Below are positions 27,857 through 34,410 of a DNA stretch of 64,000 nt, piece after piece. Position numbers and translations under genes: made by a program. Under the pieces are notes generated by a model that saw only the letters and a list, made by a program, of their open reading frames with translations, did not search any database and was not told where the DNA came from. The stretch spans positions 2,232,001 through 2,296,000 of the forward strand of contig NZ_AP024235.1 of the NCBI RefSeq assembly GCF_016756315.1. The letters are read 5' to 3'. The stretch is from Alteromonas sp. KC3. GTDB lineage: Bacteria; Pseudomonadota; Gammaproteobacteria; Enterobacterales; Alteromonadaceae. Position 1 is the first letter of the stretch. Each line of letters begins with the position of its first letter.

Positions 27857-29899
27857 CTAATTTCTTGTAATTGCGTAACGGCCAGTTTCAATCATGTCGA
27901 ATGTGATATTGGCTGCTTCATCTAAGAATGGGTCCAATTCTTCCATATCTTCAGGTAGGTCGTCCAATGTTGCGACGGTTTCTAATCCCATACGCTGTAA
28001 ACGTTCGTTAGCACGTGCAAGGGATTTAGTTTCCGCTTCTTTCTTTTCTGCTTCACGAACTGACTTAACTAATGAGATATAGTTTTTATCTTTGTTCTCT
28101 TTATATTCCGAAATGTCTTGTTGAATATAAGAGAATTCAGGGTTTTGTAGAATGCGTTTATTGTGCTTTGCAGTTAATACATCAAGTGCAGCGGTGCCGT
28201 CTGCAAAAGTTGTATAATTAGCACGGTTGATGCTATCCCAAGGCAACGCATTTTCCGCCTGACTTTCACCCCACTCTGCAGGCTCTATTGCCGAAGGATA
28301 AAGAATATCTGGAATAACACCTTTGTGTTGAGTACTACCACCATTGATGCGATAGAACTTAGCAATAGTAAATTGAACGCTTCCTAACGGGTTATCGTAA
28401 AGGTCGTAAATTTTACCTAGGCCACGGTGTTGCTGCACGGTACCTTTACCAAAGGTCTGCTCACCTACAATTAGCGCACGATTGTAGTCTTGCATTGCTG
28501 CGGCAAAAATTTCTGATGCCGAAGCGCTATAACGGTCAACCAATACAGTAAGTGGTCCATCGTAGGCTACTTCGCCGTCAGTATCGCGATTCACGCTTAC
28601 TTTGGTTTGTCCGTAACGAATTTGTACCACAGGCCCTTTTTCAATAAACAAGCCTGTTAGCAACGTAGCTTCAGTTAGAGAGCCGCCACCGTTACCACGT
28701 AAATCAACTATTACGCCTTTTACATTTTGCGATTTTAGACTTTCTATCTCTTTTGCCACATCAACACTTAAGTTGTTGTAAAAGCTAGGTATGGTGATTA
28801 CACCTAGCGGCTCACCAGCGTGAGGGCCTGTTTCTGGCACGTACACTTCAGATTTTGCTGCGCGATCTTCAAGTTTAATTTTGTCGCGAGTTAAACTAAC
28901 GACAGAAGTGGTTTTTGCATCACTTGCGCCTTTCTCTACTTGTAAGCGTACAGTACTGCCTTTAGGGCCTTTGATTAATTCGACAACTTCATCTAAGCGC
29001 CATCCAATGACATCAACAAACTCTTCATCTTCTTGTGCAACACCAACGATTTTATCTTCAGGTTTAATTGCGCCTGACTCATCGGCAGGGCCACCAGGCA
29101 CTATGCTTTTGATAACGGTATAGTCATCTTCGCTTTGTAATACAGCGCCAATCCCTTCAAAGGATAAATTCATTTCCATTTGGAAGCGATCTGCGTTGCG
29201 TGGCGATAGATAGCTTGTATGTGCTTCAATTGTGCGCGCAAATGCATTCATAGCTGTTTGAAAAACGTCTTCGCTTTTCGCTTGCTTGGTGCGCTTGATT
29301 GCTCGAGTGTAACGCTTGGTAAGAAGCTCTTTGGCTTCTTCCCATGTTTTGTCGGCCAAAACTAGATTCAGTGCATCGTACTTAACACGCTGGCGCCAAA
29401 TTTCGTCTAACTCGGCGGTAGATGTCGGCCATTCAGCATCTTCTCTATCATAAAAGAACTTATCGCCTTCTTTTTCGAAGTCGAATGGGCCCGACTCTAA
29501 CAATGCCAACGCGTACTCATAACGCTCAATTCGGCGCTTTGCACTCACGTTGTACATGTCATAAGCAATCGATAAGTTGCCTTTGCTCAATGCATCATCA
29601 AACAAACCGCGATACTTTTCGAAACTTACAACATCAGAAAGCAAAAGAACTTGCTTATTGTGGTCTAAAGAGTCGACGAAGCGCTGATAAACACGTGCAG
29701 AAAGAGCATCATCCAACGAAATTTCCTTGTAATGCGCCCTTGTGAAAAGCGCGCTTACGCGTTTTGCTGCAACACTGTGCTGAGATTCCTGTTGAAGAAT
29801 GGGAAGCTCATCAACTTCTGGAGTTGAAGTAACGGCGCCAGCACCTACCCCTACGGTAAGAAATGCGCTAGCAATGGAAATTCGAAGGATGTCTTTCAT
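27857..29899 (-). CDS. prc: Carboxy-terminal processing protease Prc/Tsp
   Basis: 680 aa against 682 in E. coli. An N-terminal signal (MKDILRISIASAFLTVG, cleavage near GAGA-V) places it in the periplasm. A helical N-terminal domain is followed by a PDZ domain (NLSFEGIGAVLQSEDD onward) and the S41 protease core, where the Ser of DRYSASASEIFAAAM and the Lys of EQTFGKGTVQ form the Ser-Lys dyad. Prc trims C-terminal tails of periplasmic proteins, including murein hydrolases and lipoprotein precursors. It begins two bases after proQ, the same pairing as in E. coli. Confidence 0.97.
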   Translation of the reverse strand: MKDILRISIASAFLTVGVGAGAVTSTPEVDELPILQQESQHSVAAKRVSALFTRAHYKEISLDDALSARVYQRFVDSLDHNKQVLLLSDVVSFEKYRGLFDDALSKGNLSIAYDMYNVSAKRRIERYEYALALLESGPFDFEKEGDKFFYDREDAEWPTSTAELDEIWRQRVKYDALNLVLADKTWEEAKELLTKRYTRAIKRTKQAKSEDVFQTAMNAFARTIEAHTSYLSPRNADRFQMEMNLSFEGIGAVLQSEDDYTVIKSIVPGGPADESGAIKPEDKIVGVAQEDEEFVDVIGWRLDEVVELIKGPKGSTVRLQVEKGASDAKTTSVVSLTRDKIKLEDRAAKSEVYVPETGPHAGEPLGVITIPSFYNNLSVDVAKEIESLKSQNVKGVIVDLRGNGGGSLTEATLLTGLFIEKGPVVQIRYGQTKVSVNRDTDGEVAYDGPLTVLVDRYSASASEIFAAAMQDYNRALIVGEQTFGKGTVQQHRGLGKIYDLYDNPLGSVQFTIAKFYRINGGSTQHKGVIPDILYPSAIEPAEWGESQAENALPWDSINRANYTTFADGTAALDVLTAKHNKRILQNPEFSYIQQDISEYKENKDKNYISLVKSVREAEKKEAETKSLARANERLQRMGLETVATLDDLPEDMEELDPFLDEAANITFDMIETGRYAITRN

Positions 29900-29901
29900 A
29901 T

Positions 29902-30570
29902 TTACGACCTCTTGGAGCGTACCAAACGTAAAGCGTCTGCGTTTACTTTTACCACCATACCTGAATCGAGCTGAACGTGAATGCCGTCCTTCGCTACTTC
30001 AGTAATAACTGCAGGCATAGGAGCCTTACCTAGTTTAACGGTAACTTGCGTTCCCTGTTGCAAATCGCTTTCAGTCAATTTTGCAGGTGGTGTATTGTTT
30101 GGTCTGTTATTTTTCGGTTTAGTTCCGCGCTTACTATCAGCATGGTCCGATTTTTCAGATTTTTCACCTTTCGGGCGATTAAATTGACGTTTTTCTTTGC
30201 GCTTTGGTTGTTGAGCTTGCTTAGCTTTACGCTTTTCAGCGGCCTTAGCTTTACTCTCTTCCAATTGTTGTTGCGCGTGATCGGCGTGTTCTTTCTCGAT
30301 TGTATCGCCTTCAACACCATCTAGATCTACGCGGTTAGCACCCTCTTTGATGCTATACAAGTAGCGCCAGCTATTGGTGTAGTGACGTAGCGTAGAACGC
30401 AGAAGTGTTTTACTTACACGTTCGTCGTCTTCTAAACGAGTGGCTAAATCTTGAAAAATGCCAATCTTAAGTGGGCGGGCCTCGCCTTCAATGCTAAAAC
30501 ATTTCGGAAAGGTCTCTGCAAGGAAAGCAATAACTTCCTTACTGGTTGTAAACTTCTCTGGTGATTCCAT
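29902..30570 (-). CDS. proQ: RNA chaperone ProQ
   Basis: 222 aa (E. coli 232). The N-terminal 115 residues are the FinO/ProQ RNA-binding domain (VIAFLAETFPKCFS, RPLKIGIFQDLA, LRSTLRHYTNSWRYL). A Lys/Arg/Gln-rich linker of about 60 residues follows, and the C-terminus is a Tudor-like module (GTQVTVKLGKAPMPAVITEV, LDSGMVVKVNADALRL). ProQ binds many small RNAs and mRNA 3' ends and, in E. coli, affects osmolyte transporter ProP. It lies between an unknown acidic gene and prc with gaps of 16 and 2 bases. Confidence 0.96.
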   Translation of the reverse strand: MESPEKFTTSKEVIAFLAETFPKCFSIEGEARPLKIGIFQDLATRLEDDERVSKTLLRSTLRHYTNSWRYLYSIKEGANRVDLDGVEGDTIEKEHADHAQQQLEESKAKAAEKRKAKQAQQPKRKEKRQFNRPKGEKSEKSDHADSKRGTKPKNNRPNNTPPAKLTESDLQQGTQVTVKLGKAPMPAVITEVAKDGIHVQLDSGMVVKVNADALRLVRSKRS

Positions 30571-30586
30571 TAACTTTCTAAATTAT

Positions 30587-30877
30587 TCAGGAGATTTCAT
30601 CGTTACTTGCATCATCCCAAGTTGCCAGCGTGTGGTCAACCCAATCAAGCAATTCGTCGTCATCTATTTCTAATAAATGCTTATCTTGTTGCCAAGATTC
30701 CCATGCGTAGTGCAAAATTTGCTCTAATCGCTGCGTTTCTATATCTTCTTCTGCGGCGTCGTAAATTGCGTGAAGAATAAAATTTAAACGTTCTGATGCC
30801 TCATCTGGGTCATCGTGAAAGTCTTCCATATCTTCAAACGTCGACAGAACAACATGTATATCAACACTCGTTTTCAT
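30587..30877 (-). CDS. Small acidic protein of unknown function
   Basis: 96 aa, starting MKTSVDIHVVLSTFED. I do not recognise the family. The protein is strongly acidic, with HDDPDEASERL, IYDAAEEDIETQRLE and EIDDDELLDWVDH, and predicted mostly helical with several Trp residues. No signal peptide or membrane segment. It sits between the methionine sulfoxide reductase gene (two bases) and proQ (16 bases), inside a clearly co-transcribed run, which argues it is real. In E. coli these two genes are direct neighbours without it. An acidic partner next to the very basic ProQ is suggestive, but no function is claimed. Confidence 0.75.
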   Translation of the reverse strand: MKTSVDIHVVLSTFEDMEDFHDDPDEASERLNFILHAIYDAAEEDIETQRLEQILHYAWESWQQDKHLLEIDDDELLDWVDHTLATWDDASNDEIS

Positions 30878-30879
30878 AA

Positions 30880-31335
30880 TTATTGCTGAGATTCCATTAG
30901 GATGTTGGCAATTTTTACTAATCCTACCTCATCCTCTTCACTAAAACGGTCGTGAATGGGGCTATCGATATCCAATACACCGACTAATTCGTTATTTAGC
31001 ACCAAAGGAATAACGATTTCGGAATTAGACGCTGCATCACATGCAATGTGTCCTTTGAACTGATGCACATCGGCAATTCGTTGAACTGTACGTGTTTCAG
31101 CACTTGTTCCGCACACACCTTTGCCCATAGGAATTCTGATACACGCTGGTTGCCCTTGAAACGGACCAAGTACAAGCTGTTCTTCTTTGTACAAGTAAAA
31201 GCCTGCCCAATTGACATCTTCCAGTTGGTTAAAAAGAAGTGCACTAATATTGGCCATATTTGCAATGAGGTCATGCTCACCAGAAACCAAGCTTTGCGCT
31301 TGGCTGACTAACTGGTTATAGAGTTGTTCTTTCAA
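30880..31335 (-). CDS. msrC: Free methionine-(R)-sulfoxide reductase (GAF domain)
   Basis: 151 aa, a single GAF domain very like E. coli YebR/MsrC. Key stretches are ANISALLFNQLEDVNWAGFY, LVLGPFQGQPACIRIP, GKGVCGTSAE and GHIACDAASNSEIVIPLV. The three redox cysteines are present at Cys65, Cys75 and Cys99, with the same spacing (10 and 24) as in E. coli. The enzyme reduces free methionine-R-sulfoxide, using thioredoxin for recycling, and repairs oxidised methionine pools. In E. coli it also lies directly upstream of proQ-prc. It follows the SIMPL gene by 12 bases. Confidence 0.95.
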   Translation of the reverse strand: MKEQLYNQLVSQAQSLVSGEHDLIANMANISALLFNQLEDVNWAGFYLYKEEQLVLGPFQGQPACIRIPMGKGVCGTSAETRTVQRIADVHQFKGHIACDAASNSEIVIPLVLNNELVGVLDIDSPIHDRFSEEDEVGLVKIANILMESQQ

Positions 31336-33398: not shown

Positions 33399-33507
33399 GA
33401 TTCCATCCTTATTTTGTTCTGTAAAATGGTGTTATCAGACATAGTACAAGGAAAGCATGTGTGCACAACCATCTGTAGCGAACATAAATAATATGAATGG
33501 CAAGTGC

Positions 33508-33523
33508 GTCATGCATACATGAC
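33508..33523. promoter_or_regulatory. 16-bp dyad upstream of the aminotransferase gene
   Basis: GTCATG and CATGAC flank CATA as a perfect inverted repeat, about 110 bases upstream of the aminotransferase start. It may be an operator; no regulator is assigned. Confidence 0.3.
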
Positions 33524-33686
33524 ATCAAAGTGGATAAGTTGTGTACATAAAGTGCGCAAAGTCTGTATAAAATATATTCACCTTTATGTAAAGATCCGAC
33601 CAGTTTCTATCTGATTGAAATTATGGGAGTAAATTGAATAATTGCTGAGTTAAGAGAATTGTAAGATAAAATTCACACACATTGTG

Positions 33687-33716
33687 TTTATAAAATAACC
33701 AAATGTATTCTATAAT
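33687..33716 (+). promoter_or_regulatory. Promoter of the candidate small RNA
   Basis: A perfect TATAAT (33711-33716) stands 18 bases after a weaker TTTATA (33687-33692). The expected start is at about 33721-33724. The weak -35 suggests help from an activator or a stress sigma factor; this is inference. Confidence 0.5.
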
Positions 33717-33720
33717 CATT

Positions 33721-33825
33721 GTCCGTTTGAAGGATTTTACATACACTCTCCCTGTAAAAGTTAGCGCACGGCTCAGCAATGAGCCATTCCCCTAGGCCCG
33801 GAACGTTTGTTCTGGGCATTTTTTA
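33721..33825 (+). ncRNA. Candidate small RNA with three hairpins
   Basis: About 105 nt between two minus-strand genes, in the opposite orientation. Hairpin 1 pairs TTTTACA (33735-33741) with TGTAAAA (33753-33759) and exposes the loop TACACTCTCCC. Hairpin 2 pairs GGCTCA (33770-33775) with TGAGCC (33780-33785) under a GNRA tetraloop GCAA. Hairpin 3 pairs GCCCGGAAC (33796-33804) with GTTCTGGGC (33809-33817) and is followed by ATTTTTT, a clear Rho-independent terminator on the plus strand only. The exposed CU-rich loop could pair with Shine-Dalgarno sequences, as in many Hfq-dependent RNAs. I do not recognise a known family; it does not look like 6S, Spot 42, RyhB or tmRNA. Confidence 0.6.
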
Positions 33826-33888
33826 TGGGGAAGTTTTCACAGGTAATATAAAGATACTCGCCAGGCTCTTAGCTAATCGAGCAGTTAG

Positions 33889-34410
33889 CTAAACGAGTGA
33901 TTCAAGTTTGTTGGCGTATTGCTGAGCATTGTTTGCGTAATGCGCTGCTGATGCTTTTAATTTGGGCTCTACACTGGCATCTAGCGTTTTCACAACCTTA
34001 CCTGGCGAGCCAACCACCAAGCTATAATCTGGAATGTCCATATTTTCAGTAATCAACGCATTCGCCCCAATAATGCAAAACTTACCAATTTTAGCCCCGT
34101 TGAGGACCACTGCATTTATTCCTATAAGTGAATAATCGCCGATCTCACATCCATGTAACATCACCTTATGTCCTACTGTAACACCAGTACCTAGCGTCAA
34201 TGGAATCCCCTCGTCAGTATGTAAAACACTACCGTCTTGAATATTGGTGTTCTCGCCTATCGTTATTTTGTCCATGTCACCGCGTAGCACTGCATTAAAC
34301 CATACGCTGCTGCCAGTTTTTAATTCAACATTTCCAATAACATGAGCACCGGGTGCAACATACGTATTATCAGCCATTTGAGGAATTTGACTTTCTAGTT
34401 TGTAAATCAT
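33889..34410 (-). CDS. Gamma-carbonic-anhydrase-like hexapeptide-repeat protein
   Basis: 173 aa. Left-handed beta-helix repeats run through the centre ([61 protein letters not shown]). His residues in LHTDEG and in VGHKVMLHG sit where gamma-class carbonic anhydrases bind metal. E. coli relatives are YrdA and CaiE. Many members have no measured anhydrase activity, so the reaction is uncertain. A C-terminal helix follows. It lies 18 bases after tesB on the same strand, so it is probably the last gene of the rlmJ/kinase/tesB group. Confidence 0.9.

Follow-up and report, generated by a model that had tools for sequence, protein, structure and literature searches.

A very probable Alteromonas orthologue of the small RNA SdsR with a conserved, lineage-specific CU-rich 5' segment

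Introduction

SdsR (RyeB) is a prominent RNA of growth-arrested Escherichia coli. In published accounts it is described as RpoS-dependent (PMC10954441; PMC6610125), as accounting for about one third of the Hfq-mediated chimeras in cells starved of nitrogen for a long time and as a repressor of yeaG acting via leader positions -31 to -22, a site tested with compensatory changes (PMC10954441); in Salmonella, SdsR is described as pairing with ompD, and the mutation G26C, which lies in the 5' part of the small RNA, disrupts this pairing (PMC4911921). Inspection of the E. coli yeaG leader showed a 10-base complementarity, from -29 to -20, to the SdsR core UUUUAGCGCA. With ompD contacted through the 5' part and yeaG through the core, the family appears to use both regions as seeds.

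Small RNAs have also been described in Alteromonas. The primary transcriptome of A. macleodii Te101 is reported to comprise 127 chromosomal small RNAs, and the CsrB-like small RNAs Aln1a-c of this strain, which carry CsrA-binding motifs, are encoded in a 404-bp intergenic region; neither SdsR nor RyeB occurs in the main text of that paper (PMC5864184). Literature searches that combined SdsR with Alteromonas gave no link, the sole co-mention being a review that names Pseudoalteromonas, and nothing was found for RyeB with Alteromonadales; a description of an Alteromonas SdsR was not found in the literature searched, which was mostly open-access.

Here we analyse a 139-nt intergenic stretch (33687-33825) of a 64-kb piece of Alteromonas DNA, referred to throughout as the window. 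A sequence-only reading had put this stretch forward as a candidate undescribed small RNA with an exposed CU-rich loop. We conclude that it most likely encodes a member of a known small-RNA family with a conserved lineage-specific 5' segment, not an undescribed RNA.

Results

Identification as an SdsR family member

A covariance-model search returned a match to a known family, and the description of the RNA as undescribed was not upheld. The single Rfam match above cut-off in the whole window was RF00111 (SdsR_RyeB) at 33730-33825 on the plus strand; it covered the full model (positions 1-100) with a score of 51 bits (E 2.2e-6), against a curated gathering cut-off of 38 bits. RF00111 matched the genome itself once, as a single copy, and was found in 46 of 60 genomes (this one plus 59 relatives; 44 above cut-off), namely all 36 genomes of the genus, this one included, and 10 of the 24 from other families of the order. 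Within the family, 168 of the 196 genomes drawn had a match (159 above cut-off), representing 49 of 52 genera. The core sequence GTTAGCGCACGGCTC was exact in 36/36 genus genomes. Taken together, the family match and this conservation rule out chance for the entire RNA. A second, weak match in one genome (G022) sits at a contig end; another second match, in a genome of the genus (L127, 34.3 bits), showed no SdsR core, passes the cut-off of RF00101 (41.2 bits) and was treated as chance.

Gene neighbourhood

The neighbourhood supports orthology of the window RNA with SdsR. The E. coli gene order is prc-proQ-msrC-letA-letB-rsmF-yebV-yebW-pphA-sdsR-yebY; the window has prc-proQ-msrC in the same order on the minus strand (27857-31335), about 2.4 kb from SdsR, the proteins (matches at 27872-31332) being 52%, 43% and 57% identical to those of E. 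coli, respectively. The proQ-like ORF lies at 29902-30570 (minus strand), so the sequence-only reading was right that ProQ is encoded in the window; its presence is a neighbourhood common with E. coli, not evidence of binding. No match to letA, letB, rsmF, pphA or yebY was found in the window.

When 41 sequences (the window, 10 loci from other families and 30 loci of Alteromonadaceae) were compared with 12 E. coli proteins, rsmF and/or letB adjoined SdsR in nine of the 10 other-family loci (L002, L003, L004, L005, L007, L122, L124, L125 and L126; not L006), with gaps of about 310 nt or less. Within this family, rsmF was beside SdsR in one of 30 loci (L134). In the whole comparison, the 30 loci without a match span at most about 1.5 kb per side, a range beyond which neighbours would be missed. 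L125 and L126 score under the RF00111 cut-off (35.3 and 32.5 bits) yet have rsmF/letB beside SdsR; the neighbourhood thus adds support where the model is weak.

Both flanking genes are on the minus strand, as had been noted from the sequence: upstream is a gene for an aminotransferase class V protein, and downstream, convergent with SdsR, is a hexapeptide-repeat gene (33889-34410) whose product we read as gamma-carbonic-anhydrase-like. This downstream neighbour is conserved. The SdsR core was present within one mismatch in 29 of 80 named loci, and in all 29 the carbonic-anhydrase-like gene converges on SdsR, the two lying 2-115 nt apart. No SdsR core was seen in the sequence covered for the remaining 51 loci, roughly half of which are from Marinobacter; core matches with two mismatches each in L101 and L105 were dropped as spurious. 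Between the carbonic-anhydrase-like gene and SdsR in the window (33826-33888) no minus-strand terminator was found, and read-through would make RNA antisense to SdsR.

Promoter, predicted regulators and terminator

The putative promoter (33687-33720, plus strand) consists of a TGTTTATAAA block and a SigmaS-like -10 box, CTATAAT (33710-33716), and is conserved across the Alteromonas rows. This includes the TATAAT box already picked out from the sequence (33711-33716), with its preceding C. A promoter scan of 33399-33900 gave two sites against 1.9 expected, not above chance; the TATAAT box alone is thus not beyond chance either, and conservation is the better argument for a promoter. Upstream regions aligned on the -10 showed CTATAAT-like boxes, a C preceding the first T and the TGTTTATAAA block. 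C was found at -13 in 33 of 35 aligned Alteromonas rows, a count biased by a row-placing pattern that favours CTA; this table holds 35 of the 40 rows (four gave no pattern match though CTATGAT is visible, and one is truncated), with one row (L041) misregistered. A -10 box preceded by C fits SigmaS promoters. The genome encodes RpoS (461.7 bits, cut-off 378.7) and Hfq (103.9 bits, cut-off 27). Judging from promoter sequence, SdsR would here most likely be transcribed under RpoS control, and Hfq binding is expected by analogy with the E. coli and Salmonella RNA described in the literature.

In many relatives the TGTTTATAAA block (33687-33709 in the window) belongs to a near-palindrome, TTGTTTA-N5-TGAACAA, close to the -35 region. 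As the mark of a regulon this palindrome was rejected, TTGTTTA-N5-TRAACAA with one mismatch giving 15 genome matches against 12 for the reversed control.

The SdsR transcript would occupy 33721-33825 on the plus strand (about 101-105 nt); judged from the -10 box, its 5' end is probably near 33721-33725, not at 33687. A terminator scan of 33399-33900 found one site, on the plus strand (shuffle mean 0.2): a Rho-independent terminator (33796-33825) whose hairpin (33796-33817) has nine pairs, one of them G-U, and is followed by T6 at 33819-33824. The sequence-only reading was correct in describing a T-run in one direction only, and the -10 box, the hairpins and the T6 terminator are all present as it had described them; of its three perfect hairpins all exist, the terminator hairpin being not strictly perfect owing to the G-U pair. 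At the sequence level, its proposal that a regulatory small RNA is encoded here, with a promoter and a terminator to itself, is borne out.

Structure across Alteromonas

The 139-nt stretch has a predicted folding energy of -33.1 kcal/mol (z -2.56; 4/200 shuffles as good). The lineage-specific 5' part contains hairpin 1 (33735-33759), with arms TTTTACA/TGTAAAA (33735-33741 with 33753-33759) enclosing a CU-rich loop, TACACTCTCCC / UACACUCUCCC (33742-33752), that carries a conserved motif and is the proposed mRNA-pairing seed. Downstream follow the invariant SdsR core GUUAGCGCAC (33760-33769), exact in all 36 genus genomes at loci located with the covariance model; hairpin 2, GGCUCA-GCAA-UGAGCC with a GNRA loop (33770-33785); a linker, AUUCCCCUAG (33786-33795); and the terminator.

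Comparison of 40 distinct Alteromonas rows showed the linker to be invariant or nearly so, hairpin 2 paired in 99.6% of cells and mostly invariant, and the terminator paired in 99.4%; as the last two hardly vary, they say little about covariation. Hairpin 1 was paired in 73.7% of cells, with several pairs often broken and one often compensatory (GC 15, AU 14, GU 2, other 6), and it was absent from the RNAalifold consensus over the Alteromonas rows. Over the whole structure, cells with two-sided changes numbered 19 against 7.8 in shuffles (0/500 as high), with no excess of further pair types (12 against 12.1) or of pairs with a two-sided change (4 against 2.7; 100/500). The sequence-only reading had held that arms varying without compensation would speak against it; for hairpin 1 this was neither clearly the case nor clearly avoided.

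The CU-rich 5' segment

The motif YTCTCC was present in the 5' part of 34 of the 40 distinct Alteromonas SdsR rows and absent from six (L011, L021, L022, L023, L117 and L123), two of which (L021 and L117) have near versions. Among 34 distinct 45-nt Alteromonas segments it occurred in 28, against 1.5 in dinucleotide shuffles (maximum 6 in 500 runs), and among 98 distinct segments from the family in 41, against 2.4 (maximum 7); the sequences in these counts are related and are not independent trials. A sample of one or a few loci per genus among the matches listed, from which four loci with no recognisable core (L174, L190, L196 and L200) were dropped, left 42 genera. Among these matches, the motif was found within 45 nt of the core in nine genera and within 135 nt in 10, and 32 of the 42 were without YTCTCC; its distance varied from 15 to 91 nt to the core and from 17 to 56 nt to the -10. 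In one genus (g66) 17 nt separate it from the -10, and the hairpin that contains it has quite different arms. Since the motif is kept while these distances vary, an RNA module fits better than a promoter element.

Variation in the 5' part was seen elsewhere in the family. In Glaciecola-type SdsR (L047, L059, L062, L066, L171 and L201) the 5' part appears to be considerably extended, and the CU segment lies upstream of the core at a distance of 75-91 nt. In nine other sampled genera (loci L155, L170, L172, L183, L186, L189, L193, L194, L204 and L208), UGCUCGC takes the place of CUUCUCCC or CUCUCCC in the 90 nt preceding the core, among the matches listed. A trade-off by genus between a C-rich loop 2 and the 5' CU motif (1/10 against 15/32, Fisher p 0.06, the genera not being independent) is not claimed.

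The predicted unpaired probability of the motif in the window was 0.99, against 0.74 in shuffled context (0/60 shuffles as high), and dropped to 0.68 when the 5' end was cut. Over the 34 of 40 Alteromonas rows with the motif the mean was 0.83 against 0.77 when shuffled, a small difference, and some relatives are predicted to hold the motif in a linker or in another hairpin. The exposed CU-rich loop of the sequence-only reading thus stands in part: the motif exists, is conserved and is for the most part predicted to be unpaired, while hairpin 1 is partly conserved and the loop is weakly defended by covariation.

Target searches

Target prediction with the loop as seed, a check proposed along with the candidate, found no conserved target by pattern searches, a weak instrument for short imperfect pairing. 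The pattern AGGGAGAAG-N2-14-ATG gave 74 matches in 17 Alteromonas genomes against 45 for the reversed control, which is not enough to claim targets; four of the 74 are SdsR itself. In the 30 of these 74 that were read as loci, no frame of at least 60 amino acids recurred between genomes; one frame of 10 amino acids recurs in two (L231 and L238). The sole match to the AGGGAGAAG pattern in the genome itself was creA, and GGGAGA was found upstream of creA in two of the 30 orthologues read, out of 35 genomes with a match.

For the core, the pattern TGCGCTAAC-N2-32-ATG gave 32 matches in the genome itself, the SdsR locus included, against 19 in the control, again not enough for targets; the 20 loci read had one frame of at least 60 amino acids (L304), inside a longer open frame. 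A yeaG gene was present in 35 of 36 genus genomes. The core site TGYGCTAA was found in none of 30 Alteromonas yeaG leaders, and GAGCCGT, which could pair with ACGGCTC of the core, in three. A stretch immediately upstream of the start codon is conserved in these leaders (L274-L303); in many of them it reads CTAAGCTGAAA and then ACGGG and CCGT, and it is possibly an RNA element of its own.

Discussion

The most likely mechanism is the following. In stress or stationary phase, RpoS-RNA polymerase would transcribe SdsR; Hfq would bind the 3' U-tail of the RNA, which would repress mRNAs through base pairing. The core GUUAGCGCAC, hairpin 2, linker and terminator, which make up the 3' two thirds of the RNA, represent the ancestral SdsR module. 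The 5' third has been remodelled in Alteromonas and some related genera, where it holds CUUCUCCC or CUCUCCC in a mostly predicted single-stranded state. This segment most likely serves as an additional seed, specific to the lineage, for ribosome-binding sites of the GGGAG type.

That the gene is the Alteromonas orthologue of SdsR we regard as very probable. The 5' third is unlike that of E. coli SdsR, and the window has non-standard pairs at two of the three positions of the 5' helix of the family, as might be expected of an unrelated, undescribed small RNA of the kind proposed by the sequence-only reading; but the RF00111 cut-off is exceeded over the whole model and the neighbourhood is common to the window and E. 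coli, making an unrelated RNA highly unlikely. We give as little credence to an inverted repeat that merely ends the transcripts of the flanking genes: the element is intergenic and the downstream gene converges on the RNA in every core-bearing named locus, whereas the T-run is on the plus strand only, with both neighbours on the minus strand, and a conserved promoter and core lie 5' of the hairpin. An RNA toxin-antitoxin pair of the SdsR/RyeA type, as proposed for E. coli, would require an antisense partner at this locus. A minus-strand match to RF00101, weak at 28.3 bits, points in that direction, as do relatives that exceed the cut-off for this family (for example L201, 37.6 bits), and read-through from the converging gene could supply antisense RNA. 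The window match is nevertheless under the RF00101 cut-off of 37 bits, no minus-strand promoter or terminator was found in 33399-33900, and since RF00101 models the other strand at this very locus, it should match wherever there is an SdsR gene; such a pair is improbable here.

Within the SdsR reading, what the CU segment does is a matter of greater doubt. Seeds in the 5' part of the family suggest, by analogy, that the Alteromonas segment is a 5' seed, and its complement, GGGAG, resembles ribosome-binding sites; on balance we favour a lineage-specific mRNA-pairing seed, with some reserve. The segment might instead be kept for contact with Hfq or another protein, for RNA stability, or for transcription start or early elongation, in keeping with the lack of a conserved target in our searches and with an accessibility over the genus barely above that of shuffled context. 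Set against this are the complementarity of the motif to GGGAG-type sites, the conservation of its sequence but not of its distance to promoter or core, and its occurrence in differing predicted local structures; we hold a role other than seeding to be possible, if somewhat doubtful. Returning to the seed, a wider and tentative suggestion is that SdsR consists of an invariant core plus terminator and an exchangeable front end refitted in each lineage with a seed of its own: the anti-Shine-Dalgarno-like YTCTCC in Alteromonas and nine other sampled genera, UGCUCGC in nine others of the family, and the enterics' own. If true, the exchange of a single segment would redirect one RpoS-linked RNA to new targets.

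The gene itself is an ordinary member of the SdsR family, and SdsR is one small RNA that Alteromonas transcriptomes should contain. It resembles Aln1a-c in being a small RNA of Alteromonas, Aln1a-c differing by their CsrA-binding motifs. SraC/RyeA (RF00101), the antisense RNA of SdsR in E. coli, would lie opposite the same locus, where the match falls short as set out above. The UCCC-motif small RNAs of Gram-positive bacteria (for example Listeria LhrC and Staphylococcus small RNAs) have a C/U-rich patch complementary to GGGAG-type sites; the resemblance of the Alteromonas CU segment to these lies in the proposed way of working only, and we know of no sequence relation between them and Alteromonas SdsR. 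The closest comparison is with SdsR of E. coli and Salmonella, with which the window RNA shares the core UUAGCGCACGGCUC, GAGCCAUU, the linker, the terminator, a SigmaS-like promoter and the prc-proQ-msrC region, and a length near the 104 nt annotated in E. coli. It differs from E. coli SdsR in the sequence and pairing of the 5' third: the E. coli RNA has no CU segment in its 5' part and carries CUCCCA in loop 2, whereas the window RNA has CUCUCCC in the 5' part and GCAA in loop 2. The E. coli gene also lies beside yebY/pphA, and that of the window beside the carbonic-anhydrase-like gene. SdsR across this marine family, with a front end that is different but conserved, offers a natural comparison of how a core small RNA may change its targets.
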